Origin: Archaeoglobaceae archaeon
Lineage (GTDB): Archaea; Halobacteriota; Archaeoglobi; Archaeoglobales; Archaeoglobaceae
Assembly: GCA_038734275.1 (NCBI GenBank)
Contig: JAVYOO010000012.1
Location: 1 to 36,650, forward strand
Direction: 5' to 3'
Length of the DNA stretch: 36,650 nucleotides
The notes under the pieces were generated by a model. That model was not told where the DNA came from and made no database searches. It worked only from the letters and a program-made list of their open reading frames with translations. Each line of letters opens with the position of its first letter. Position 1 is the first letter of the stretch. The translations under genes and the position numbers were made by a program. Positions 20,987-31,040 of the stretch are shown one piece after another.

Positions 20987-21025
20987 GGTTAAATACTTTC
21001 CTACATTTTAATTTTAGGTGGTCTC

Positions 21026-21388
21026 ATGGGGATACTCGAGAAATTTAAGACAAAGGAGAAGGTGGCTCTGGATGATTACGAAGAACTTGACTTAGCCCAG
21101 TATGAAGCGGAAATAGGCGAAAAAGCTTCAGTTTTAATCAAGGTCGCAGAAATAACGGGTTTGAATGAGATCCCAAGGATCAAGAAAGAAGTTTATGACG
21201 GGAATATTATAATAGCTGATATTGCCTTTGTAAGACACGATAAGCTAACTCTTGACAGGATTCTCAAAGACCTCAAACAGCTTGCAGAGGAAATCAATGG
21301 CGATATTGTGGGGTTGGGTGAAGAATACGTTGTAGTAACTCCCGCAGGTATAAAGGTGGACAGAAATAAGATCCGAGGAGGTAAATGA
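21026..21388 (+). CDS. sepF: Cell-division protein SepF (archaeal FtsZ membrane anchor)
   Basis: The 120-residue protein has an N-terminal amphipathic segment (MGILEKFKTK) that could serve as a membrane-targeting helix, an acidic linker, and the compact SepF core (ASVLIKVAEITGLNEIPRI through LAEEINGDIVGLGEEYVVVTPAGIKV). Archaeal SepF binds the FtsZ C-terminal tail and tethers the ring to the membrane, as shown in Haloferax and Methanobrevibacter. An AGGTGGTC site lies just upstream of the ATG, with a TTAAATA-like TATA box before that. Its stop overlaps the ZPR1 start (ATGA), so the two are co-translated. Confidence 0.93.
   Translation: MGILEKFKTKEKVALDDYEELDLAQYEAEIGEKASVLIKVAEITGLNEIPRIKKEVYDGNIIIADIAFVRHDKLTLDRILKDLKQLAEEINGDIVGLGEEYVVVTPAGIKVDRNKIRGGK
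21377..21382 (+). promoter_or_regulatory. Strong ribosome-binding site for the ZPR1 gene inside sepF
   Basis: GGAGGT (within GAGGAGGT) lies in the last codons of sepF, immediately before the overlapping ATGA. The strong site suggests that ZPR1 is translated at a rate set separately from sepF despite the overlap. Confidence 0.55.
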
Positions 21389-21963
21389 TTACCTGCCCAA
21401 TCTGTGGCAGAGAACTGAAGCTTTATGTGAACACATACGAAGTTCCTTTTTTTGATAAGATTCTTCTCACATCTATTTCGTGCGAATGTGGATTTAAACA
21501 TGCAGATTCGATAGTTTTAGGCGAAAAGGAACCTACAAGATACAGTATAAAGGCAAAGAAAGAAAATCTTTTTACAAAGGTAATACGTTCCACTTCTGGA
21601 ACGATTCGGATTCCAGAGCTTGGAGTTTCGATCGAACCTGGTCCAGCAAGCCAGGCTTTTGTAACGAACCTTGAAGGTGTTTTAGTAAGGGTCGCAGACG
21701 TTGTAAAAATTGCTAAGAAATGGAATGAAGATGATGAAGAGAAAGTGAAAAAGTGTGATTGGATTCTGGAGAAAATAAATAGTGTGATCGAAGGCGATGG
21801 CGAACTAACGATTATTCTGGAAGATCCATTTGGTAATAGCCTAATTCTTTCGGATGAAAGCTTCAAGGAGAAGCTTTCGGAGTGGGAAGCTAAGGAGTTA
21901 AAGACGGGTTTGACAGTAATTGAATTAACGGGTTTCACTGAAGAGGAGATTTCTCATCTTTAG
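21385..21963 (+). CDS. Archaeal ZPR1-type zinc-finger protein
   Basis: The 192-residue protein starts with a zinc ribbon (C4PIC7 and C33EC35G) and continues with the ZPR1 homology fold: TRYSIKAKKENLFTKVIRS, TSGTIRIPELGVSIEPGP and a C-terminal IILEDPFGNSLILSD. Eukaryotic ZPR1 binds eEF1A and acts as a folding chaperone for it; archaeal single-copy members may assist aEF1A, though this is inferred. The coding region overlaps sepF at its start and overlaps the converging TatA-like gene by 29 bases at its end. Confidence 0.93.
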   Translation: MITCPICGRELKLYVNTYEVPFFDKILLTSISCECGFKHADSIVLGEKEPTRYSIKAKKENLFTKVIRSTSGTIRIPELGVSIEPGPASQAFVTNLEGVLVRVADVVKIAKKWNEDDEEKVKKCDWILEKINSVIEGDGELTIILEDPFGNSLILSDESFKEKLSEWEAKELKTGLTVIELTGFTEEEISHL

Positions 21964-22225
21964 AGTCTTTAGCCGTTATATTCAACTCCGTGTATTTCCT
22001 TTCCATCTCTTCTTTCACTTCACGGCTTGAAACTCCATAGAGAACTTCAAGTTCCACAATTCTTTTGGCTTTTTTGTATTCTGCGTAAATTTTCCCCAAC
22101 TCTCTTGCAAATTCAATAAGCTTTTCTGGGCTCAGCAGAATTAGGGCAATTATTGCGATGAATACAAGTTCTTCGAAACCGAGCACAAGTTCTTTTTGCG
22201 TAAAGCTTTTTATCTCTTTCGCCAA
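21935..22225 (-). CDS. TatA-like twin-arginine translocase subunit
   Basis: The protein has one membrane helix (ELVFIAIIALILL), then the typical hinge and amphipathic helix SPEKLIEFARELGKIYAEYKKA and a charged tail, as in TatA/TatB. The frame has no ATG. It can open at TTG 22225 (96 residues) or GTG 22186 (83 residues, giving M-LGFEELVF). The GTG gives an N-terminus much more like other TatA proteins. It also fits a TATA-like TTTATATTA near 22235, because a transcript starting about 25 bases on would miss the TTG. The larger extent is given here; I favour 22186. No tatC is in the window. The 3' end overlaps ZPR1 by 29 bases. Confidence 0.75.
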   Translation of the reverse strand: MAKEIKSFTQKELVLGFEELVFIAIIALILLSPEKLIEFARELGKIYAEYKKAKRIVELEVLYGVSSREVKEEMERKYTELNITAKDSKDEKSPLQ

Positions 22226-22327
22226 ATTTATTTATATTAAATATATATTACAGTTCAAAGTTAATCTCCCACAAGGAACTCCAAAATGCGGGTAAGTATT
22301 TAAAAAGTTTCAAGTTACTGTTACACC

Positions 22328-23359
22328 ATGAGAGGTGTTGTGAAAATAATAAATCCTTATGATGCCGGTGTTTTCCCGGAGGGGAATGTCATACTTTTAA
22401 ATTCAAACGAAAACCCATACGAACCAAGCGAAGAGGTTAAAAAAGCCTATATCGAGTCTATAGGTAAAATAAGTAGATATCCTGACCCCTCGTATTCAAA
22501 ACTAAAGGAGGCCATATCTGAATATGTGGGGTTTGGGACTGAAAGAATAGCGGTCGGCTGTGGATCATCTGAGCTGATTTCACGGGTTTGTGACGTTCTT
22601 TTAGATGAACTTGATAAGGTAGTTATTCCAATGCCTTCTTATTCTCTCTATATTTCTTATGCAATGCTTCGAAATGCATCCATTTTGCTTCCTGTTTATG
22701 ACGGCTACTCCATAACTCCGGAATTCATCGAGGAAGAAAAGCCAAAATTATCTATTATTTGTTCTCCAAACAATCCCACCGGAAACACTGTTAAAAAAAG
22801 AGTAATCGAAAAAATTGCAGAGAATTCTGAATATCTCCTAATTGACGAAGCTTATGCAGAATTTGCAGAGAGTAATTTACTTGATATGGCGTATGAGTTT
22901 GACAATGTGGTAATTTTGAGAAGCTTTTCCAAATTTTTTGGGCTTGCAGGAATGCGAGTAGGCTACGCGATTGCAGGTAAAGAGATAGTAGAAGCCATCG
23001 AGAAGGTAAGACTTCCATTTGCGATTTCCAGCCCGGGCGTTGCCACTGCGATTTCGGCATTAAAATCTATTGACTATTATATTGAAGTTAAGAAAAAAAT
23101 TCTAAAAGAGCGAGAAAGAGTTTATAAGGAGTTGAAAAGGCTTGGATTCGAAGTTTATCCTTCAGAAGCCAATTTTATTCTTTTTAGAGCTAAAAAACAC
23201 CTTTTTGAAAAACTGTTAGAGCAAGGGATTGTGGTTAGAAATCTCGTTGGTTTATTGGGACTTGAGGGCAACTTCATAAGAATGAGCATCGGTAGAAGAG
23301 AGGAAAATGACAGGGTTATCAAAATACTCGAATCAGAGTGTAGCAAAACTTCTGCATAG
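22328..23359 (+). CDS. hisC: Histidinol-phosphate aminotransferase
   Basis: The 343-residue fold-type I PLP enzyme shows LNSNENPYEPS at the N-terminus, GCGSSELISRV, PMPSYSLY, SPNNPTGN (substrate/PLP Asn), LIDEAYAEF, and the Schiff-base lysine at about 202 in RSFSKFFGLAGMRVGY. FIRMSIGRREEN near the end contains the carboxylate-binding Arg. The NENPY motif and length match HisC rather than aspartate aminotransferases. It catalyses the PLP-dependent transamination of imidazole-acetol phosphate in histidine synthesis. No other his gene is nearby. A TATTTAAAAAG box precedes the start by about 30 bases. Its 3' end overlaps priS by 27 bases. Confidence 0.93.
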   Translation: MRGVVKIINPYDAGVFPEGNVILLNSNENPYEPSEEVKKAYIESIGKISRYPDPSYSKLKEAISEYVGFGTERIAVGCGSSELISRVCDVLLDELDKVVIPMPSYSLYISYAMLRNASILLPVYDGYSITPEFIEEEKPKLSIICSPNNPTGNTVKKRVIEKIAENSEYLLIDEAYAEFAESNLLDMAYEFDNVVILRSFSKFFGLAGMRVGYAIAGKEIVEAIEKVRLPFAISSPGVATAISALKSIDYYIEVKKKILKERERVYKELKRLGFEVYPSEANFILFRAKKHLFEKLLEQGIVVRNLVGLLGLEGNFIRMSIGRREENDRVIKILESECSKTSA

Positions 23360-24286
23360 CAGGTAGATACCCGCAAATTCCGGCACTTCAGCAATTTCAC
23401 CAGCAGAGAGATTTAGTGTTTCTCCACCAAGATTTATTTTCACTTTTTTTAGAATCCTTAATTTCATCTTGTCTTCCCCAAAAGCAATCGCATCTCTCAA
23501 AGGTTCAAAAGAATCAATATCTTCAACTTTTGCGACCATCAAACCAGTCTTTCCATGAAGAGTTCCCGGCATTCTTATTAGCCTCTTCACATCTGCGGTA
23601 ACTGGGGCGTCGATGTGTATCCTAAACTTTTCAAAGATCTTTTCTGGCTTTTTGAGCGCCTTTAAGAGTTCTTTTCCTTCTAAGTTTTTCCTTCTTTTGA
23701 AATACGTGTAAATTCTTGTAGCAACATTAGATTCCACAATATTTTCGTTTCGAAGAACAGTGGGATTATTCAGCGTTAAGTAATCGATTATCTCCCTTCT
23801 TTCACTGGAATCGAGCTTTAAAAAATCTTCATCGCAAACGTGCACGTGGTATCCACGGCCACCAGAGAAATAAGTCTCCACTTCTTTTATTCCAAAATCA
23901 AGTTTTAGGATCTTTAGAAGCTTTTTTACCTCTTCTTTTGCGACTGCAAGGGCTTTTTCTATTGAGTTTGTTTTCAAAGGTAAGTGATCTGCATCGATAT
24001 CGAATACGAGATCTGCACCGAGCCAACCTTTTTCTTCCATTCTCTCTTTTTCGGGGTTTTCATAATACGCCGAGGAGTAATAAACGTGGGCTGGCACGCT
24101 TGAGATCACGTAGTTCCTGAAGTCTTCGAGTGAAGAGAAAGAGAGATGTCTATGCATTATAAAATCAGGGAAAGCTTCAAATGGGACAAACGCGAATTCT
24201 CTTTTTTCGAACTGTCTTGGCATTTTTATATTGGCTTTTCTGTAATATTCAAGAAACTTTTTCATTAGAAATTGTTTCGTCTCCAT
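23333..24286 (-). CDS. priS: DNA primase small (catalytic) subunit PriS
   Basis: The 317-residue protein has the archaeo-eukaryotic primase catalytic aspartates in LVFDIDADHLP (Asp96, Asp98 and Asp100), the nucleotide-binding SGGRGYHVHV (about 135-145) and KRLIRMPGTLHGKTG near the C-terminus. It synthesises RNA primers with PriL, whose gene is not in this window. The start at 24286 overlaps UPF0146 by 22 bases. An alternative ATG at 24265 (MKKFLEYY) makes a TAATG junction with the UPF0146 stop and would be a classic coupled start, so the first seven residues are uncertain. Confidence 0.95.
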   Translation of the reverse strand: METKQFLMKKFLEYYRKANIKMPRQFEKREFAFVPFEAFPDFIMHRHLSFSSLEDFRNYVISSVPAHVYYSSAYYENPEKERMEEKGWLGADLVFDIDADHLPLKTNSIEKALAVAKEEVKKLLKILKLDFGIKEVETYFSGGRGYHVHVCDEDFLKLDSSERREIIDYLTLNNPTVLRNENIVESNVATRIYTYFKRRKNLEGKELLKALKKPEKIFEKFRIHIDAPVTADVKRLIRMPGTLHGKTGLMVAKVEDIDSFEPLRDAIAFGEDKMKLRILKKVKINLGGETLNLSAGEIAEVPEFAGIYLLCRSFATL

Positions 24287-24642
24287 AGATAGAACGCCAG
24301 TCCCTTATAGTTCACGAGTTCAGTATCTGCATAATCTCCATAAAGTGGTTTGATAATGCAGTCAGCGTCTAACTTGTTTGCGAGTGTTTTGATGAAGCTA
24401 AATAGTTCTGGTGGTGGTCTTATAGAGTATACGAGTTCCACATCACTGTAAAGCTGAATATTGGGATTTCTGATGTCATCTATAAAAAATTTAAACCTTT
24501 TTTCTCTGACTGGCCTTATATCTGTTGCGATAACATCCACGCCTCTCGAGATCAGGAACTCTGCAACTTCTGTGTAGTTCCCGATACCGATCTCTGCAAC
24601 TTTTTTGTATTTATTTGCTATGAACTCTGCAAGGCGAAGCAT
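24265..24642 (-). CDS. UPF0146 family protein
   Basis: The 125-residue protein has a Rossmann-like SAM-type opening (KVAEIGIGNYTEVAEFLISRGVDVIATDIRP) and DDIRNPNIQLYSDVELVYSIRPPPEL, the signature of UPF0146. It is short for a methyltransferase and no activity is established. It is encoded directly before PriS with an overlapping end, an arrangement that suggests co-translation with the primase. It is divergent from RimI with 35 bases between starts. Confidence 0.85.
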   Translation of the reverse strand: MLRLAEFIANKYKKVAEIGIGNYTEVAEFLISRGVDVIATDIRPVREKRFKFFIDDIRNPNIQLYSDVELVYSIRPPPELFSFIKTLANKLDADCIIKPLYGDYADTELVNYKGLAFYLWRRNNF

Positions 24643-24677
24643 TATCTTAATATTCTCCCCCGGAAGTATAAGCTTTT

Positions 24678-25124
24678 GTGCAAGTGGTAGTTAGAGAATA
24701 CACCACAAAGGACTTTAATGAAGTTCTCGAAATCGATCGTGAAGCATTCAATCCGAGAAACCCGTCCTTTGATATGTATATTTATCTAACTTATGGGAGC
24801 GATATATTCGTCGCTGACATCGGTAAGAAGATTGTGGGATACGTTGTTACCATGGAGTTAGATAAGCTGAGAGGGAAGATAATTTCTCTTGCAGTCAAGA
24901 AAGAGTTCAGAGGAAGCGGTATTGGTGAATACCTAATGAGAAGAGCGATTGAGAGACTCAGGGAGAAGGGAAAGAAAGAAATTGCACTAGAAGTGAGAGT
25001 TTCAAACAAAATAGCCCAAAAACTATACGAAAAGCTTGGTTTTAAGATAGTAGAAACTATTCCAAACTATTATAGCGATGGTGAGGATGCTTACTACATG
25101 GTGCTCAGATTTAACGAGCAATGA
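24678..25124 (+). CDS. rimI: RimI-type N-terminal acetyltransferase (GNAT)
   Basis: The 148-residue GNAT protein has FNEVLEIDREAFNP, VGYVVTMEL, the acetyl-CoA loop EFRGSGIGEYLM (RxxGxG), LEVRVSNKIAQKLYEKLGF, and a final PNYYSDGEDAYYM. This matches archaeal Ard1/NAT enzymes, which acetylate nascent protein N-termini and are homologous to bacterial RimI. The start is probably GTG 24678, though GTG 24684 is possible; no ATG exists near. Its 3' end overlaps the converging UPF0058 gene by 14 bases. Confidence 0.9.
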   Translation: MQVVVREYTTKDFNEVLEIDREAFNPRNPSFDMYIYLTYGSDIFVADIGKKIVGYVVTMELDKLRGKIISLAVKKEFRGSGIGEYLMRRAIERLREKGKKEIALEVRVSNKIAQKLYEKLGFKIVETIPNYYSDGEDAYYMVLRFNEQ

Positions 25125-25383
25125 GTTTTGGTTCGAGGACTTCTTTGAGCTTTGGATTTTGAGACAGCTTTTCCGGATTCGTTGCTCTTAGAATTTCGGA
25201 AATACCCTTACAAAGGAGTAAAACTGCCTTCTTATGGTCGGCTTTGCTTCGATTCACCTGCACAGGATTTATTCCAAGAGCCTCATAGGCTTTAAAATGT
25301 CCGTTTGCTAAACCCGCATTCTCTAAAATTCTCTTAATGTTAAAGAGCACCAAATGGAGCACAAGCACTTCTTCCTTTTGCAT
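25111..25383 (-). CDS. UPF0058 family small protein
   Basis: The product of about 90 residues (MQKEEVLVLHLVLFNIKRILE, SKADHKKAVLLLCKGI, EVLEPKLIAR) matches the archaeal UPF0058 pattern. It has a helical N-terminal region and a His/Lys-containing DHK segment proposed to bind metal. The ATG at 25383 is preferred to a GTG one codon upstream. A TATA-like CTTTTTATAG (minus strand) is about 25 bases before it, so it likely has its own promoter. Function is unknown. Confidence 0.82.
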   Translation of the reverse strand: MQKEEVLVLHLVLFNIKRILENAGLANGHFKAYEALGINPVQVNRSKADHKKAVLLLCKGISEILRATNPEKLSQNPKLKEVLEPKLIAR

Positions 25384-25485
25384 CACTACTTGTTGGGATA
25401 CTATCTATAAAAAGTTTTCTCTCATCACGGAAAAATTTTTACATGTTTAATTCATTTACATAAGCATAAATCATTATTGACAGCA

Positions 25486-25695
25486 TCAACCACCGGAAAT
25501 CACTCTTATCACAGTGACTTCTCCTTCCTCTGCAAAATCGTCTATGGGGACAGGCATTGAATCTTTAACTAAGACTACAGTTTCCGGATTTATTTTTAAT
25601 ATTTCCTCCAAAATCTCGGAGTATCTTTTCTTTTCATTTATTTCAAGGGTCTCCTCCCTCTTTCCAAAACCAATAAAAATAAACTTGATCTTCAT
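25486..25695 (-). CDS. Ubiquitin-like beta-grasp protein (MoaD/ThiS/SAMP type) ending in Gly-Gly
   Basis: The 69-residue protein starts KIKFIFIGFGKREETLEI, has a helix (YSEILEEILKI), then VVLVKDSMPVPIDDF and EGEVTVIRVISGG, ending exactly in Gly-Gly. This is the ubiquitin-fold MoaD/ThiS/SAMP pattern; the exposed GG is what an E1-like enzyme adenylates. It may be a sulfur carrier for molybdopterin, thiamine or tRNA thiolation, or a protein modifier (SAMP). The sequence does not say which. Its ATG overlaps the stop of a 51-residue gene by ATGA, so the two are co-translated. No E1-like gene is nearby. Confidence 0.85.
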   Translation of the reverse strand: MKIKFIFIGFGKREETLEINEKKRYSEILEEILKINPETVVLVKDSMPVPIDDFAEEGEVTVIRVISGG

Positions 25696-25847
25696 TCTTC
25701 AGGAAGAACTTCTTTGGAGATCTCTTTTATGTTTCCTCCTTTCTGAGGCTTTAGTTCCTGAACGTTCTCCTCAAGCATTTTTTCATCTTTGCTAAGAATC
25801 TTCTTTAAACCCTTCTTTTTGAATCTTTTCCAGTCAAATCTCCTCAT
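25692..25847 (-). CDS. Hypothetical 51-residue Lys/Glu-rich protein, coupled to the ubiquitin-like gene
   Basis: A complete small frame runs from ATG 25847 to TGA 25692-25694. The product starts MRRFDWKRFKKKGLKKILS (a very basic helix) and becomes acidic towards the end (EISKEVLPEE), with 13 lysines in 51 residues. It contains QKGGN. It has no membrane segment. Its stop overlaps the start of the ubiquitin-like gene (ATGA), which is good evidence that it is real although short. I do not recognise a family. It could be a substrate, adaptor or RNA-binding partner; this is speculation. Confidence 0.7.
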   Translation of the reverse strand: MRRFDWKRFKKKGLKKILSKDEKMLEENVQELKPQKGGNIKEISKEVLPEE

Positions 25848-25910
25848 CCAACACACCCAATTTATTTTGTTATGATAGTAGAAAAACTTTTGCTAAAATT
25901 TTCTTCGAAT

Positions 25911-26099
25911 TTATAGCTCCCCTTTCATTTTTTCAAGTCTTCTTCTAATCTCTGCGAGTTCATCTTTTGTAACGGTTACCCTTGTTCCGACTTCTTTTAG
26001 TTCTTTGGTAAGACTCCTTATTTTTCTAAGCTGCACGATATTTAGTATGACGCTGAAGATTAGCAAAACTAAAAGTGAGGCGTTGAAGATAAACTCCAT
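25911..26099 (-). CDS. Short membrane-anchored coiled-coil protein, partner candidate of MinD
   Basis: The 62-residue protein has one N-terminal membrane helix (FIFNASLLVLLIFSVILNIV) followed by a heptad-like charged helix (IRSLTKELKEVGTRV and LAEIRRRLEKMKGEL). It follows MinD by 4 bases, and its ribosome site GAGGTGA lies inside the end of the MinD gene, so the two are translated together. No known family is recognised. Size and layout (membrane helix plus coiled coil) suggest a membrane anchor or activator for the MinD ATPase, an inference from the neighbourhood. A T-rich stretch downstream could end the transcript. Confidence 0.75.
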   Translation of the reverse strand: MEFIFNASLLVLLIFSVILNIVQLRKIRSLTKELKEVGTRVTVTKDELAEIRRRLEKMKGEL

Positions 26100-26103
26100 T
26101 TTT

Positions 26104-26895
26104 TCACCTCTTTCTTCTGAATACTTTTAGCATTTTTGTTAACGCGCTCTCCTTTCTTGCTGCTAACACTGTTGGGGGCACTTCCTTCTTCTTTCCAGCT
26201 ATGGCATATGCAAGTTCCTTTATAGCTAAAGAAGCCGGTGAGTCAGGAGCGCTAAGAATTACTGGCTTTCCAAATGCGGCCGATTTTCTAACCTGAGGAT
26301 CTTCTGGAATCGTGGCTATGACCTTTGCTTCCAAAATAGCTTCGATTTCAGTTTTTGCCATGTCTATACCCCAGCCAGTCATGCGGTTTATTACTACACC
26401 CAGTGTTTTAGTTCCAAGCTTTTCTGCAACTATTTTCGTCTTTAAGCCGTCTGTTATCGAGGCGATTTCTGGATTTACTACTAATAATAGCTCCTGAGCG
26501 GCAGCTATGGCAATCACGGCACTTCTTTCAAGTCCTGCAGGAGCGTCAAGTAGCATTATGTCAGTGCTACCAACTATTCTTGCCAAAACTTCTTCAAGTT
26601 TTTCGGGGTTTACTTTTCTAAGACCCTCAAGGCTAACACCTGCAGGAACAACCTTTACTCCACCAGGTCCAACGTAAATTGCTTCTTCGATTCTTGCTTC
26701 ACCAGCGAGGACATTTTGCAAGGTAACGGGAAGCCCTTCCATGCCAAGAATTAGCTCTAAATTTGCCATTGTTATGTCTGCGTCAACTATCGTAACGTCA
26801 TAACCCAACTGAGTTAAAGCTATACCAAGGTTGGCCGTGATCGTGGTCTTCCCGGTTCCACCCTTCCCGGATGCTATCGTAATCGTCCTAGCCAT
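26104..26895 (-). CDS. minD: MinD/ParA-type cell-division or positioning ATPase
   Basis: The 263-residue ATPase has the deviant Walker A KGGTGKTT (11-18), switch [17 protein letters not shown], and Walker B-like [14 protein letters not shown]. It ends in a basic helix ([13 protein letters not shown]) like the membrane-targeting sequence of MinD. ATP-dependent dimers of MinD bind membranes and position division or surface machines; a halophilic homologue (MinD4) positions archaella and chemoreceptors. It has a good GGTGATCG ribosome site and a TTAAATAG TATA-like box. It is divergent from fwdD and is followed by a membrane coiled-coil gene. Confidence 0.94.
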
Positions 26896-27022
26896 TCGAT
26901 CACCTTATTATTATCATGATATAGTCTACTATTTAAGCGTTTCTAATCTAAACAGAAGTTAAGAAAAGATATCGTTATATATACCTTCGCTTCAGATTTA
27001 AACTGAAAATTCTGGTGGTGCT
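26896..27022. promoter_or_regulatory. minD/fwdD intergenic region with two palindromes
   Basis: This is the longest non-coding stretch of the window. Towards minD are the ribosome site GGTGATCG, a perfect palindrome TATCATGATA (26912-26921) and a TATA-like CTTAAATAG read on the minus strand (about 26932-26940). Towards fwdD are TTATATATA (26975-26983) and TTCAG-ATTTAAA-CTGAA (26991-27007), an inverted repeat lying between the TATA box and the expected transcription start. GGTGGTG before the ATG is a ribosome site. Both palindromes are in operator-like positions. Confidence 0.45.
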
Positions 27023-27391
27023 ATGGTGGTGGTTGAGCTTATAACTGGTAGAACGCTTGATCAGGGGGCTACGGTTGAGGAAAAACTAAGTGAAGAATAT
27101 TTTAAAGCTGTTAGTTACATAGAGCTCAATGAGGAGGATTTCAAACTGCTTGGCCTTAAGGAAGGCGACAGTGTTAAAGTTTCTACAGATTTTGGGGAGG
27201 TAGTGGTTTTTGCAAAAAAAGGTGAAGTCCCAAGAGGTGTTGCTTTCATACCGATGGGCCCTTATGCGAACATGGTTATCGATCCAACGACAGATGGCAC
27301 AGGAATGCCACAGTTCAAAGGAGTAAAGGCAAAGATCGAAAAGACTGGAGAGAGAGTTAAAACGGTTAAAGAATTGCTGGAGGCGATCTAA
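27023..27391 (+). CDS. fwdD: Formylmethanofuran dehydrogenase subunit D
   Basis: The 122-residue protein corresponds to the molybdopterin-dinucleotide-binding domain of formate-dehydrogenase-like enzymes, split off as a separate subunit. ELITGRTLDQGATVEEKLSE is the FwdD start; LKEGDSVKVSTDFGEVVVFA and AFIPMGPYANMVIDP follow. With subunit B it binds the tungsten/molybdenum bis-pyranopterin cofactor. It is first in a tight operon (stop followed directly by the fwdB start) behind a promoter with a palindrome. Confidence 0.95.
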   Translation: MVVVELITGRTLDQGATVEEKLSEEYFKAVSYIELNEEDFKLLGLKEGDSVKVSTDFGEVVVFAKKGEVPRGVAFIPMGPYANMVIDPTTDGTGMPQFKGVKAKIEKTGERVKTVKELLEAI

Positions 27392-28648
27392 ATGGAGGAC
27401 GTGATCTGCACATTTTGTGGTAGTGTTTGCGATGATGGTGAATTCGATACCGAAAAGAAAAAGGTAAAGAAGTTCTGCAGACTTGGAAGCAGTAAATTTG
27501 CCGAAAAACAGAGAATAAAAGCCCCAATGATCGATGGAAAAGAAGTAAGCTATGAAACTGCAATTGAAAAAGCTGCTGAAATTCTTGCGAATGCAAAGAA
27601 GCCTTTGCTATACGGCTGGGCTTCAACTGCGAACGAAGCGATAAGAGTTGGCGTGCTCTTAGCGGAGAAGCTTGGCGGGGTTTATGATCAGTGCGCAAGC
27701 GTTTGCCACGCTCCGGGCACTTTGGCCGTGATCGAAGAAGGATTGCCGGGAGCTACGCTTGGCTCTATAAAAAACCGTGCGGATGTTGTGATTTTCTGGG
27801 GAGCAAACCCAGCTGAAGCACACCCAAGACATGGGCTAAGATACAGCATTTCTGCAAAAGGGTTGCTCGTGAAAGATAGAAAGCAGAGAAAAGTGGTTGT
27901 GGTTGATGTTCGACCAACAAAGACCGCCAAGATGGCGGACATGTTTGTTCAGATCAAACCGGGCTACGATTACGCAATAATTTCAGCTTTGAGGGCAATA
28001 ATAAGCGGAAATGCTGAAGTTGTGCCGAGTGAAGTTGGTGGAGTTGCAAAGGAGAAGCTCATAGAGCTTGCGGAGATCATGAAAAAGGCGAAGTATGGAG
28101 CGATTTTATATGGTCTTGGAGTGACGCAGTCAAGAGGTAGAGACAGGAACGTTGAGAATGCTATAAAGCTGATTCAATTGCTCAATAGAACTACTCGCTG
28201 GGTAATCTGGCCAATGAGGGGGCATTACAATGTCGTTGGCGCTGGAGAAGTGCCAGCTTGGGAAGTTGGCTACCAGTATGCGATTGACTTCAGTCGTGGT
28301 TATCCAAGATTTTCTCCTGCCGAGTTCTCAGCTGTGGAAGTCTTAAAGCGTAAAGATTGCGATGCTGCGCTTATAGTTGCTTCAGATCCAGTTGCCCACT
28401 TCCCAAAGATAGCGGTGAAGCATTTGAAGCAGATCCCCGTGATCCAGATCGATCCCTATCCAAACATGACGACGCTACTTGCAAAAGTCGTTATTCCTTC
28501 AGCGGTGTATGGCATTGAAGCAGAAGGGACTGCTTACAGAATGGACTGCATACCGCTTAGGGTTAAGAAGATCATTGAAACGAGCTATTGGACTGACGAA
28601 AAGATCCTTGAGGAAATTCTAAAGAGAGTTGAAAAGCTGAAGGGGTGA
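27392..28648 (+). CDS. fwdB: Formylmethanofuran dehydrogenase subunit B (catalytic, formate dehydrogenase-like)
   Basis: The 418-residue subunit starts with a [4Fe-4S] site (C6, C9, C13, C29 in CTFCGSVCDD ... FCR). It then has LYGWASTANEA and YDQCASVCHAPGT. The Cys in SVCHAPG (about residue 105) aligns with the metal-ligating Cys (Sec in some methanogens); here it is Cys, codon TGC. FWGANPAEAHPRH, IKPGYDYAIISALR, WVIWPMRGHYNVVGA and ASDPVAHFP are further Fwd/Fmd hallmarks. It interconverts CO2 and formate at a W or Mo centre. Its start directly abuts the fwdD stop; a 4-base gap leads to fwdA. Confidence 0.96.
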   Translation: MEDVICTFCGSVCDDGEFDTEKKKVKKFCRLGSSKFAEKQRIKAPMIDGKEVSYETAIEKAAEILANAKKPLLYGWASTANEAIRVGVLLAEKLGGVYDQCASVCHAPGTLAVIEEGLPGATLGSIKNRADVVIFWGANPAEAHPRHGLRYSISAKGLLVKDRKQRKVVVVDVRPTKTAKMADMFVQIKPGYDYAIISALRAIISGNAEVVPSEVGGVAKEKLIELAEIMKKAKYGAILYGLGVTQSRGRDRNVENAIKLIQLLNRTTRWVIWPMRGHYNVVGAGEVPAWEVGYQYAIDFSRGYPRFSPAEFSAVEVLKRKDCDAALIVASDPVAHFPKIAVKHLKQIPVIQIDPYPNMTTLLAKVVIPSAVYGIEAEGTAYRMDCIPLRVKKIIETSYWTDEKILEEILKRVEKLKG

Positions 28649-28652
28649 AAAA

Positions 28653-30332
28653 ATGCTCTGGATAAGGAACGGAATTGTTGTTGATCCCAAGAACAAAATC
28701 AACGCAGAGAAAATGGACATTTTCATTAAGAATGGCAAGATCGTTGAAGAAAATGAAGTCAAGAAAGAGGAATGTAAAGTAATTGACGCAAGCGGAAAGC
28801 TTGTAGTCGCTGGCGGAGTTGACATGCATGCTCACATTGCTGGAAGCAAGATCAACACCGGCAGAACAATGCGTCCCGAGGAAATGAGAGTTGTCAGAAA
28901 CATCGCGGGCAAGTTTAGAGCAACTGTAGGAAGAGTTCTGTTAACAGCTCCAGCAATTGGTTATGAATACGCAAAAATGGGCTATACAACGAGCTTTGAA
29001 GCTGCTCAGCCCCCGATAGGAGCCTTGCACACCCATGAAGAGCTCGATGCGATTCCAATGATCGACAAAGCTGCTCTGCCTGTTTTCGGAAACTGGCACC
29101 TTGTATTCAAGTGCATTGAAGAAAAGAACATGGAAAAGCTCAAGGCACTGGTTGCCTGGGCAATTGAGAGGAGCAAAGGCTTTGGAGTCAAAGTTGTTAA
29201 CCCCGGAGGCGTTGAGGCTTGGATGTATGGTGGAAACGTAAAAAGCCTTGATGATCAGGTGCCCGGATTCAATGTAACTCCGAGGGAAATAATAACCTGG
29301 CTCATCAAGGCAAACGAAGAACTCGGATTACCTCATTCTGTGCACCTGCACTGCAACAACCTTGGAGTGCCCGGGAACTATCAGACCACGATCGAATCAA
29401 TAAAGCTCGCAAAGGGATTCAGCAATGCCAAAAGGCAGGTGCTCCATGTGACGCATGTGCAGTTCAACGCCTACGCTGGTAGTAGCTGGAGAGATGCTGG
29501 AAGTGGTGCTGCCGAGATTGCAAAAGTTGTGAACTCGATGGACAACGTTACAATCGATATGGGTCAGCCGATATTTGGGCATGCAACCGCAATGACTGGC
29601 GACGCTCCTTTCCAGTTCAGCCTGCACAAGCTCATTGGAGCGAGATGGAGCAACAAAGACACCGAAGTTGAAACTGGAGCGGGAATAGTGCCAATAGGCT
29701 ACTTGCCAAACAATCCAGTCCATGCTTTGCAGTGGGCTATTGGCCTGGAGCTTGGACTGCTTGTGGACAGCAACAAAGTCGCGCTAACGACAGATTATCC
29801 AAATGGCGGTCCATTCACGGAGTATCCGTATGTGATGGCGATGCTGATGAGCAAGAAAATGCGAGAGGGCGAGTTGAGTAAGGTTAATGCCTACGTTCAG
29901 AAAGCAACAGGCCTGGCAAGCATAGACGTTGAGAAGACACTCTACGAAGTAATACACATGACAAGAAGCCTGCCTGCAAAGATTTTGGGACTTGAAAACA
30001 AAGGTCATCTTGGCATTGGAGCGGACGCGGACATAGCGATCTACAACCTCAATCCTCTGGAAACTGACACCTCGAAGGAGTTCGAAAAGGTCTATAAGAT
30101 GTTTAAGAGTGCTGAATACACGATCAAGGGCGGAGAAATCATTGTGAAGGGCGGAGAGCTTGTAAAAGAAGTTTATGGAAGAACATTCTGGGTTGACGCA
30201 ACAAAGAAAGCAGACATTCAGGCGGTAATGCCCGACATTAGGGAGTATTTCAACTACTACAGCGTCCAGCTTGGCAACTATGGTGTCGAGGAGCGCTGGA
30301 TTAAGAAGCCCGCAAGAATCGAGGTGGTTTAA
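28653..30332 (+). CDS. fwdA: Formylmethanofuran dehydrogenase subunit A (amidohydrolase-type)
   Basis: The 559-residue subunit is an amidohydrolase/dihydroorotase-like enzyme with a binuclear metal site. VDMHAHIAG gives His59 and His61; FGVKVVNPGG holds the probable carboxylated Lys180; PHSVHLHCNN, HVTHVQFNAYAG and LTTDYPNGGPFTEYP (Asp381) complete the site. In the M. wolfeii complex this subunit joins formate, delivered through an internal tunnel from subunit B, to methanofuran. Length and motifs are standard. A GGGGTGA ribosome site precedes the ATG. The final TAA abuts the fwdC ATG. Confidence 0.97.
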   Translation: MLWIRNGIVVDPKNKINAEKMDIFIKNGKIVEENEVKKEECKVIDASGKLVVAGGVDMHAHIAGSKINTGRTMRPEEMRVVRNIAGKFRATVGRVLLTAPAIGYEYAKMGYTTSFEAAQPPIGALHTHEELDAIPMIDKAALPVFGNWHLVFKCIEEKNMEKLKALVAWAIERSKGFGVKVVNPGGVEAWMYGGNVKSLDDQVPGFNVTPREIITWLIKANEELGLPHSVHLHCNNLGVPGNYQTTIESIKLAKGFSNAKRQVLHVTHVQFNAYAGSSWRDAGSGAAEIAKVVNSMDNVTIDMGQPIFGHATAMTGDAPFQFSLHKLIGARWSNKDTEVETGAGIVPIGYLPNNPVHALQWAIGLELGLLVDSNKVALTTDYPNGGPFTEYPYVMAMLMSKKMREGELSKVNAYVQKATGLASIDVEKTLYEVIHMTRSLPAKILGLENKGHLGIGADADIAIYNLNPLETDTSKEFEKVYKMFKSAEYTIKGGEIIVKGGELVKEVYGRTFWVDATKKADIQAVMPDIREYFNYYSVQLGNYGVEERWIKKPARIEVV

Positions 30333-31040
30333 ATGGCAGTCGTAATAAAGCCTAAGAAGTTTTTTGAAGTCTGCGTTGAAGCTGAACTCACGCCAGAGCT
30401 TGCCTTGCGAAGCGTTGACGAAGTAAAGAAGTTTAAGGTTTACTATGGCAACAAAGTCGTTGAGCTTGGAGAACTCTTTGAAGTCGCAAAGCAAGGCGAT
30501 GAAAAGAAGCTAATCCTTGACGGCGACTTCAGCAGAGTCAAGTGGATTGGAGCAAGGATGGTTGATGGCGAGATCGTTGTAAAGGGGAGCGTTGGAGCTA
30601 ACTGCGGAGCATTCATGCGTGGTGGCAAAATAACCATTGAGGGCAACGCAGACGACTGGCTCGGCATCGAAATGGCGGGCGGTGAAATAATTGTTAAGGG
30701 CAATGCAGGCAATCTTGTTGGCTGTGCTTATTACGGCGACGCGGTCGGCATGACTGCTGGCAAAATAGTCATTGAGGGCAACGCAGGGAACTACGTTGGC
30801 GAGAAGATGAATGGTGGCGAGATCGTGATCAAGGGCAATGCTGGCGACTTCATTGGCACCGAGATGCGTGCTGGAGTAATCGAGATACACGGCTCGTGCG
30901 GTTTTGTCGGCGGGGACATGCGAGGCGGAGAGATAAGGATCAAGGGAAGCTTTGAATTGCTTCCGACCTTCAAAAAGACTGAGAAGGGCTGGGTTGGAGA
31001 TGTGAATGTGAAGGGAGAAGGAGTTATAAAGACATTCTAA
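30333..31040 (+). CDS. fwdC: Formylmethanofuran dehydrogenase subunit C
   Basis: The 235-residue subunit is built from about seven beta-helical repeats of the GxxGxxxG type (GARMVDGEIVVKG, GAFMRGGKITIEG, GIEMAGGEIIVKG and so on). This is the fold shared with the glutamate synthase C-terminal domain. FwdC is a structural subunit that packs against A in the complex. It abuts fwdA with no gap and is the last fwd gene here; no polyferredoxin (F/G) or E gene follows. The next gene converges from the other strand after 9 bases. Confidence 0.95.
   Translation: MAVVIKPKKFFEVCVEAELTPELALRSVDEVKKFKVYYGNKVVELGELFEVAKQGDEKKLILDGDFSRVKWIGARMVDGEIVVKGSVGANCGAFMRGGKITIEGNADDWLGIEMAGGEIIVKGNAGNLVGCAYYGDAVGMTAGKIVIEGNAGNYVGEKMNGGEIVIKGNAGDFIGTEMRAGVIEIHGSCGFVGGDMRGGEIRIKGSFELLPTFKKTEKGWVGDVNVKGEGVIKTF

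Follow-up and report, generated by a model that had tools for sequence, protein, structure and literature searches.

A conserved lysine-rich small protein encoded in overlap with a SAMP2-type ubiquitin-like protein in Archaeoglobaceae and related archaea

The window, by which we mean the whole stretch of 36,650 nucleotides that was analyzed, belongs to an Archaeoglobaceae-type genome of 1.73 Mb. A preliminary description had reported a complete 51-residue frame that overlaps by ATGA the gene of a Gly-Gly protein. Reading of the minus strand bore this out, and the second frame encodes 69 residues ending in ISGG. The features of the locus are as follows.

25692..25847, minus strand: small basic protein of 51 residues, ATG at 25847, stop TGA at 25694-25692, MRRFDWKRFKKKGLKKILSKDEKMLEENVQELKPQKGGNIKEISKEVLPEE
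25486..25695, minus strand: SAMP2-type ubiquitin-like protein of 69 residues with a Gly-Gly end (PF21965 and SAMP2/TtuB structure matches)
25692..25695, minus strand: ATGA overlap of the small-gene stop TGA and the SAMP2 start ATG (frame reading)
25111..25386, minus strand: UPF0058 gene, a neighbor kept in some genera only, probably outside the unit
25911..26099, minus strand: 62-residue membrane/coiled frame, a neighbor in the same genus only
26104..26895, minus strand: MinD/ParA-type ATPase, a neighbor in the same genus only, outside the unit

An alternative GTG start at 25856 would give a small protein of 54 residues; the family alignment begins at the ATG. With 12 Lys and 3 Arg, the protein is lysine-rich, and the basic N terminus and acidic C terminus described earlier correspond to net charges of +9 for residues 1 to 20 and -4 for residues 21 to 51. 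The ATGA overlap is also present in the same-genus loci L003-L006 and in many others, and it is likely to couple translation of the small gene and the SAMP2 gene. In agreement with the preliminary description, no E1, MoaE or ThiG was detected among the neighborhood proteins scanned, and the sole ThiF/UbaA-type E1 match of the genome lies on another contig (G000:C3:101002-101676; E = 9.2e-71). By eye, this E1 gene overlaps the 3' end of a gyrase B-like gene (G000:C3:100930-103585, L175). One JAMM protein and two further ThiS/MoaD proteins are also encoded in this genome, all on other contigs. Of the same-strand MinD pair described there, a single MinD-type gene is present at 26104-26895; besides it, the frames listed for 21000-30500 include the 62-residue membrane/coiled frame but no second MinD gene.

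The 69-residue protein matched PF21965 (SAMP2) with an E value of 2.7e-14 and 53.7 bits, against a cutoff of 27. Furthermore, a profile of its relatives matched the solved SAMP2 structures 2l32 (E = 7.7e-13), 4hrs and 5lda as well as the sulfur carrier TtuB (5ztb), and its stop codon follows directly on the Gly-Gly, which thus stands at the extreme C terminus. Judged by these matches, it belongs to the SAMP2 family. SAMP2 was found in 252 of 294 phylum genomes, and a search of viral contigs with the SAMP2 alignment yielded no relative. The penultimate glycine is lost in approximately 18 of 93 small-protein-plus-SAMP2 pairs, which have SG, AG, QG, RG or KG ends. Ends of the QG, RG, AG or SG type, with the last glycine kept, were seen in L049, L053, L055, L060, L070, L077, L080 and others. 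In L111, L116, L122, L127 and L144, one or a few residues follow the Gly-Gly (SGGNFR, SGGSTS), so that processing would be needed for SAMP2 activation.

The small frame was analyzed for conservation. With the single sequence as the query, the small protein was detected in 33 of 36 family genomes, its own included (E values up to 2.6e-4), and a 29-row profile matched in 46 of 55 family genomes at an E value of 3.1e-14 or better. A broader 25-row profile found it in 112 of 294 phylum genomes at an E value of 0.01 or better, or in 111 once G192, a fragment with an internal stop, is dropped from the count. Named carriers include Methanocrinis, Methanothrix, ANME-2, Methanosarcinales and Methanocella, and the small gene was present in none of 13 DPANN-type loci (bacterial contig L168 left out). 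Against four same-genus relatives, the dN of the small protein was 0.060, 0.084, 0.084 and 0.094, whereas synonymous sites were close to saturation or past it. Together with the spread of its homologues, this pattern shows that the 51-residue frame is a genuine gene under strong conservation and not a chance frame. Over two of those pairs, the dN of SAMP2 was 0.163 and 0.193; since one and the same genome pair gave 0.060 for the small protein and 0.163 for SAMP2, the small protein is the more constrained of the two. Within the family, no close relative was found to have kept the ubiquitin-like gene while its small frame was lost or disrupted. In the phylum sample, 45 family genomes carried the small protein and 44 of them SAMP2 (the 45th, G011, is a contig-end case), and the six family genomes without the small protein were also without SAMP2.

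Pfam and NCBIfam contained no model for the small protein of the window; 25 members gave scattered weak matches only, the best with an E value of 0.0027 for one member. In a profile comparison with the PDB, the small protein had no match either, the best E value being 0.06 (malate dehydrogenase). The small protein represents a previously unnamed family. If it truly partners SAMP2, its short length and the lack of a Pfam or NCBIfam model explain why it was overlooked.

Synteny in relatives, which the preliminary description had proposed to check, revealed that the small gene and the SAMP2 gene stay together. With the window proteins as queries (set L003-L048), SAMP2 was located directly downstream in 44 of the 44 listed family loci that show the small gene. 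Some of these 44 are repeat fetches of one genome, and L025 and L031 of the query set scored below the cut. Conversely, in the named loci found through SAMP2 (L109-L154), the small gene was in front in 43 of 46, the exceptions being L138, L153 and L154. Forty loci came from family-profile matches, mostly outside the family, and SAMP2 was just downstream in 32 of them; the remaining eight comprised two non-homologues (L085, L088), two loci with SAMP2 remnants (L051, L052) and four loci of family f18.

In contrast to this pair, the other neighbors change. The order MinD, 62-residue frame, small gene, SAMP2 was confined to the same-genus loci L003-L006; MinD is turned round in L010/L118 of the same genus and missing elsewhere. 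The UPF0058 and GNAT genes are kept in part of the family, and, like MinD, they come and go around the pair. Since the pair is kept while MinD changes, the MinD link is no part of it, and MinD, the same-strand adjacency of which is limited to same-genus loci, was rejected as a member of the unit. In family f31 (L091, L107), the gene upstream of the pair resembles, by eye, the diphthamide synthase Dph2.

The two genes do part in some lineages. Comparison of the listings for the 294 phylum genomes gave 102 genomes with both, 9 with the small protein only (G011 at its contig end; G048 and G057; G132 and G136; and G081, G110, G115 and G130 of family f18) and approximately 150 with SAMP2 only. Of the 183 genomes that lack the small protein, these approximately 150 retain a SAMP2-type gene, and SAMP2 thus works without such a partner across most of the phylum. 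In genus g26, four genomes (G050, G132, G136 and G198) keep an intact small gene before a decayed, frame-broken SAMP2 gene (L051, L052, L172, L173). Few changes separate these four genomes, and the SAMP2 scores of G050 and G198 were weak in the phylum listing; G225 (L108), also of g26, has retained both genes. In family f18, the small gene is kept and no SAMP2 match was obtained. Genus g26 and two of the four genomes of f18 do encode other ThiS/MoaD proteins. More generally, an E1 was present in 14 of 16 checked genomes that depart from the simple pair, and 17 of 19 had other ThiS/MoaD proteins, which means that another ubiquitin-like protein could stand in for SAMP2 there. The earlier proposal of a dedicated partner thus holds in part: the small gene is conserved and linked to SAMP2, but the link is not obligate, as the SAMP2-only genomes and the absence of an intact adjacent SAMP2 in g26 and f18 show.

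Analysis of the small protein sequences revealed a strictly conserved motif. Among 99 distinct sequences of the conserved part, drawn from 139 loci and aligned to the profile with no preset pattern, K12, G13 and K16 were identical in all 99, and position 23 was Lys in 93. Positions 3, 7, 11 and 15 exchange Lys and Arg. In a tree of the 93 pairs, no change was found at any of positions 12, 13 and 16, and 7, 9, 13 and 14 changes were found at positions 3, 7, 11 and 15, respectively. The tree set required the KG pattern, a bias of which the 99-sequence profile alignment is free, although sequences lacking the motif may be undercounted because the matches were gathered by profile. The predicted fold of the small protein alone consists of a helix at residues 6 to 32 (pLDDT blocks 91, 94 and 86), a weak helix at 40 to 47 and a loose tail. 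The predicted long helix places residues 12 and 16 one turn apart on the same face.

The one-contig genome G044 encodes the small protein and SAMP2 as a single open frame of 104 residues that begins with the small part (L096, G044:C1:609460-609771). Internal start codons are present in this fusion, and separate synthesis of the SAMP2 part is possible. The fusion is known from this one genome; G120 (76% complete), the only other searched genome of the genus, gave no match. Among the 11 genomes of the order to which G044 belongs, one has the fusion, four the small gene alone and five SAMP2 alone, and G120 is without a small-profile match.

A related layout was observed in the ANME-2-type loci L119, L125, L126, L131 and L139, where the two frames share the same phase and a single TAG separates them. 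Pyrrolysine read-through to a fused product was considered and rejected, because the relative L107 has the same layout with TAA and because the start codon follows a GAGG-like stretch. When an in-phase ANME-2 chain was folded with the stop as Gly (26 rows), the SAMP2 part reached a pLDDT of approximately 80 to 91 and the helix 57 to 64, with a pTM of 0.50. In this fold, the small helix itself was poorly folded and was not confidently docked on SAMP2.

A protease gene lies close to the pair in genus g7. A Prok-JAB (JAMM) gene lies just after SAMP2 in G015, G035 and G078 and approximately 1 kb after it in G026, and JAMM is thus nearby in all four g7 genomes that have the pair. The HxHx7Sx2D motif is intact in the three g7 JAMM genes that were translated (L135:6242-6697, L141:569-1039 and L130:7194-7667).

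Based on the linkage, the fusion, the JAMM neighbor and the strict motif, the best explanation is that the SAMP2/E1 system has in the small protein a helical accessory, which probably acts as an adaptor; we give this reading about an even chance. One coupled message would yield both the small protein and SAMP2, probably in balanced amounts. SAMP2 would presumably be activated at its C-terminal glycine by the single ThiF/UbaA-type E1 of the genome, as established for relatives. The small protein, predicted to form one amphipathic helix of basic character that ends in an acidic tail, may use its invariant K-G-x-x-K face to bind SAMP2 or an enzyme that uses SAMP2, either the E1 or the tRNA thiolase NcsA/TtuA. 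Its remaining positive charges might help to hold RNA or the partner, and in this way the small protein would steer activated SAMP2 to its use.

Alternatively, the small protein could bind RNA or ribosomes in a role of its own and have the message, but no function, in common with SAMP2, the coupling only setting expression. Its strongly basic N-terminal half is consistent with this, as is its survival in g26 and f18, where the neighboring SAMP2 is broken or missing. However, the pairing with SAMP2 is nearly constant across distant families in which all other neighbors change, and the in-frame fusion in G044 also speaks against it. We regard this alternative as possible, if on the unlikely side.

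It is more doubtful that the small protein serves as a dedicated lysine acceptor, with SAMP2 attached through its C-terminal glycine to K12 and/or K16. The conjugate would then be a storage or inactive form, a hand-over intermediate or a tag, and JAMM would release SAMP2. K12 and K16 are never Arg in the 99 sequences, in spite of the Lys-Arg exchange at basic positions nearby; the high conservation of K23 and the JAMM genes of g7 (one of them approximately 1 kb off) also fit, and according to a passage of PMC11323500, SAMP2 is joined to lysines in Haloferax. On the other hand, the lysines are invariant even where the adjacent SAMP2 has decayed or is absent, the penultimate glycine of SAMP2 is lost in roughly a fifth of the pairs, and a few SAMP2 proteins extend past the Gly-Gly. 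Thus, of the properties expected of a substrate, the strictly conserved lysine was found, but a constant SAMP2 partner was not, as g26 and f18 illustrate. In a further and improbable variant, a minimal helical peptide would receive SAMP2 on its invariant lysines and so provide, between the E1 and the point of use, a reservoir or an E2-like station. If true, this would be an undescribed kind of accessory for archaeal ubiquitin-like modifiers, replacing the E2 and E3 that these archaea lack.

Finally, it is very improbable that the frame is a leader without protein function, kept only to couple SAMP2 translation: the ATGA overlap in the window and the GAGG-like stretch inside the last codons of many homologues would suit such a leader, but the few amino acid changes at near-saturated synonymous sites (a dN/dS pattern that also disfavors a non-coding leader), the invariant residues far from the junction and the retention of the small gene where SAMP2 is gone argue against it.

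The finding bears on the question of how archaeal SAMP proteins are directed to sulfur transfer or to lysine attachment in the absence of the E2 and E3 enzymes of eukaryotes. As an adaptor or other accessory of SAMP2, a conserved, co-translated partner of 40 to 60 residues in Archaeoglobaceae and in Methanosarcinales, Methanothrix and Methanocella relatives would offer a small, testable handle, which extends to the genetically tractable Methanosarcina. A search of openly available literature yielded no mention of the small family. A 70-residue MoaD small protein, which may differ from the SAMP2 analyzed here, is mentioned in part of a Ribo-seq study of M. mazei (PMC11456600).

The small protein was compared with known systems. 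Pup is small, helical or unfolded, and ends with GGE or GGQ. The small protein resembles it in being small and helical, and some homologues carry a Gly-Gly-Glu stretch near the C terminus. Membership in the Pup family was nevertheless rejected: no listed homologue has a GGE or GGQ terminus, Archaeoglobaceae do not conserve the Gly-Gly stretch, and several homologues have this stretch at the ribosome-binding site of the next gene.

A second comparison concerns tRNA thiolation by TtuB/TtuA and archaeal NcsA/Tuc1. The solved structures closest to the SAMP2 profile include TtuB (5ztb); unlike in that pathway, a thiolase gene does not adjoin SAMP2 in the scanned stretch of the window. In the section of their article concerned, Makarova and Koonin use the thiolase gene to connect the SAMP2-type Ubl group with tRNA thiolation, and thiolation is the ancestral role proposed there for this group (PMC2948915); section 3.2 of that article makes no mention of a small basic partner family. 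SAMP2 is also linked to tRNA thiolation in a passage of PMC11323500.

The third comparison is with SAMP2 of Haloferax volcanii (HVO_0202; PF21965; 2l32, 4hrs, 5lda). Unlike the window, the haloarchaeal-type SAMP2 loci L103-L106 have no small gene in front, and unlike in Haloferax SAMP2, the penultimate glycine is not kept in several methanogen lineages. The downstream partner in the window shares with Haloferax SAMP2 the family, the beta-grasp and the C-terminal Gly-Gly, and, as in the SAMP2 system, both an E1 and a JAMM protein are encoded in the genome.
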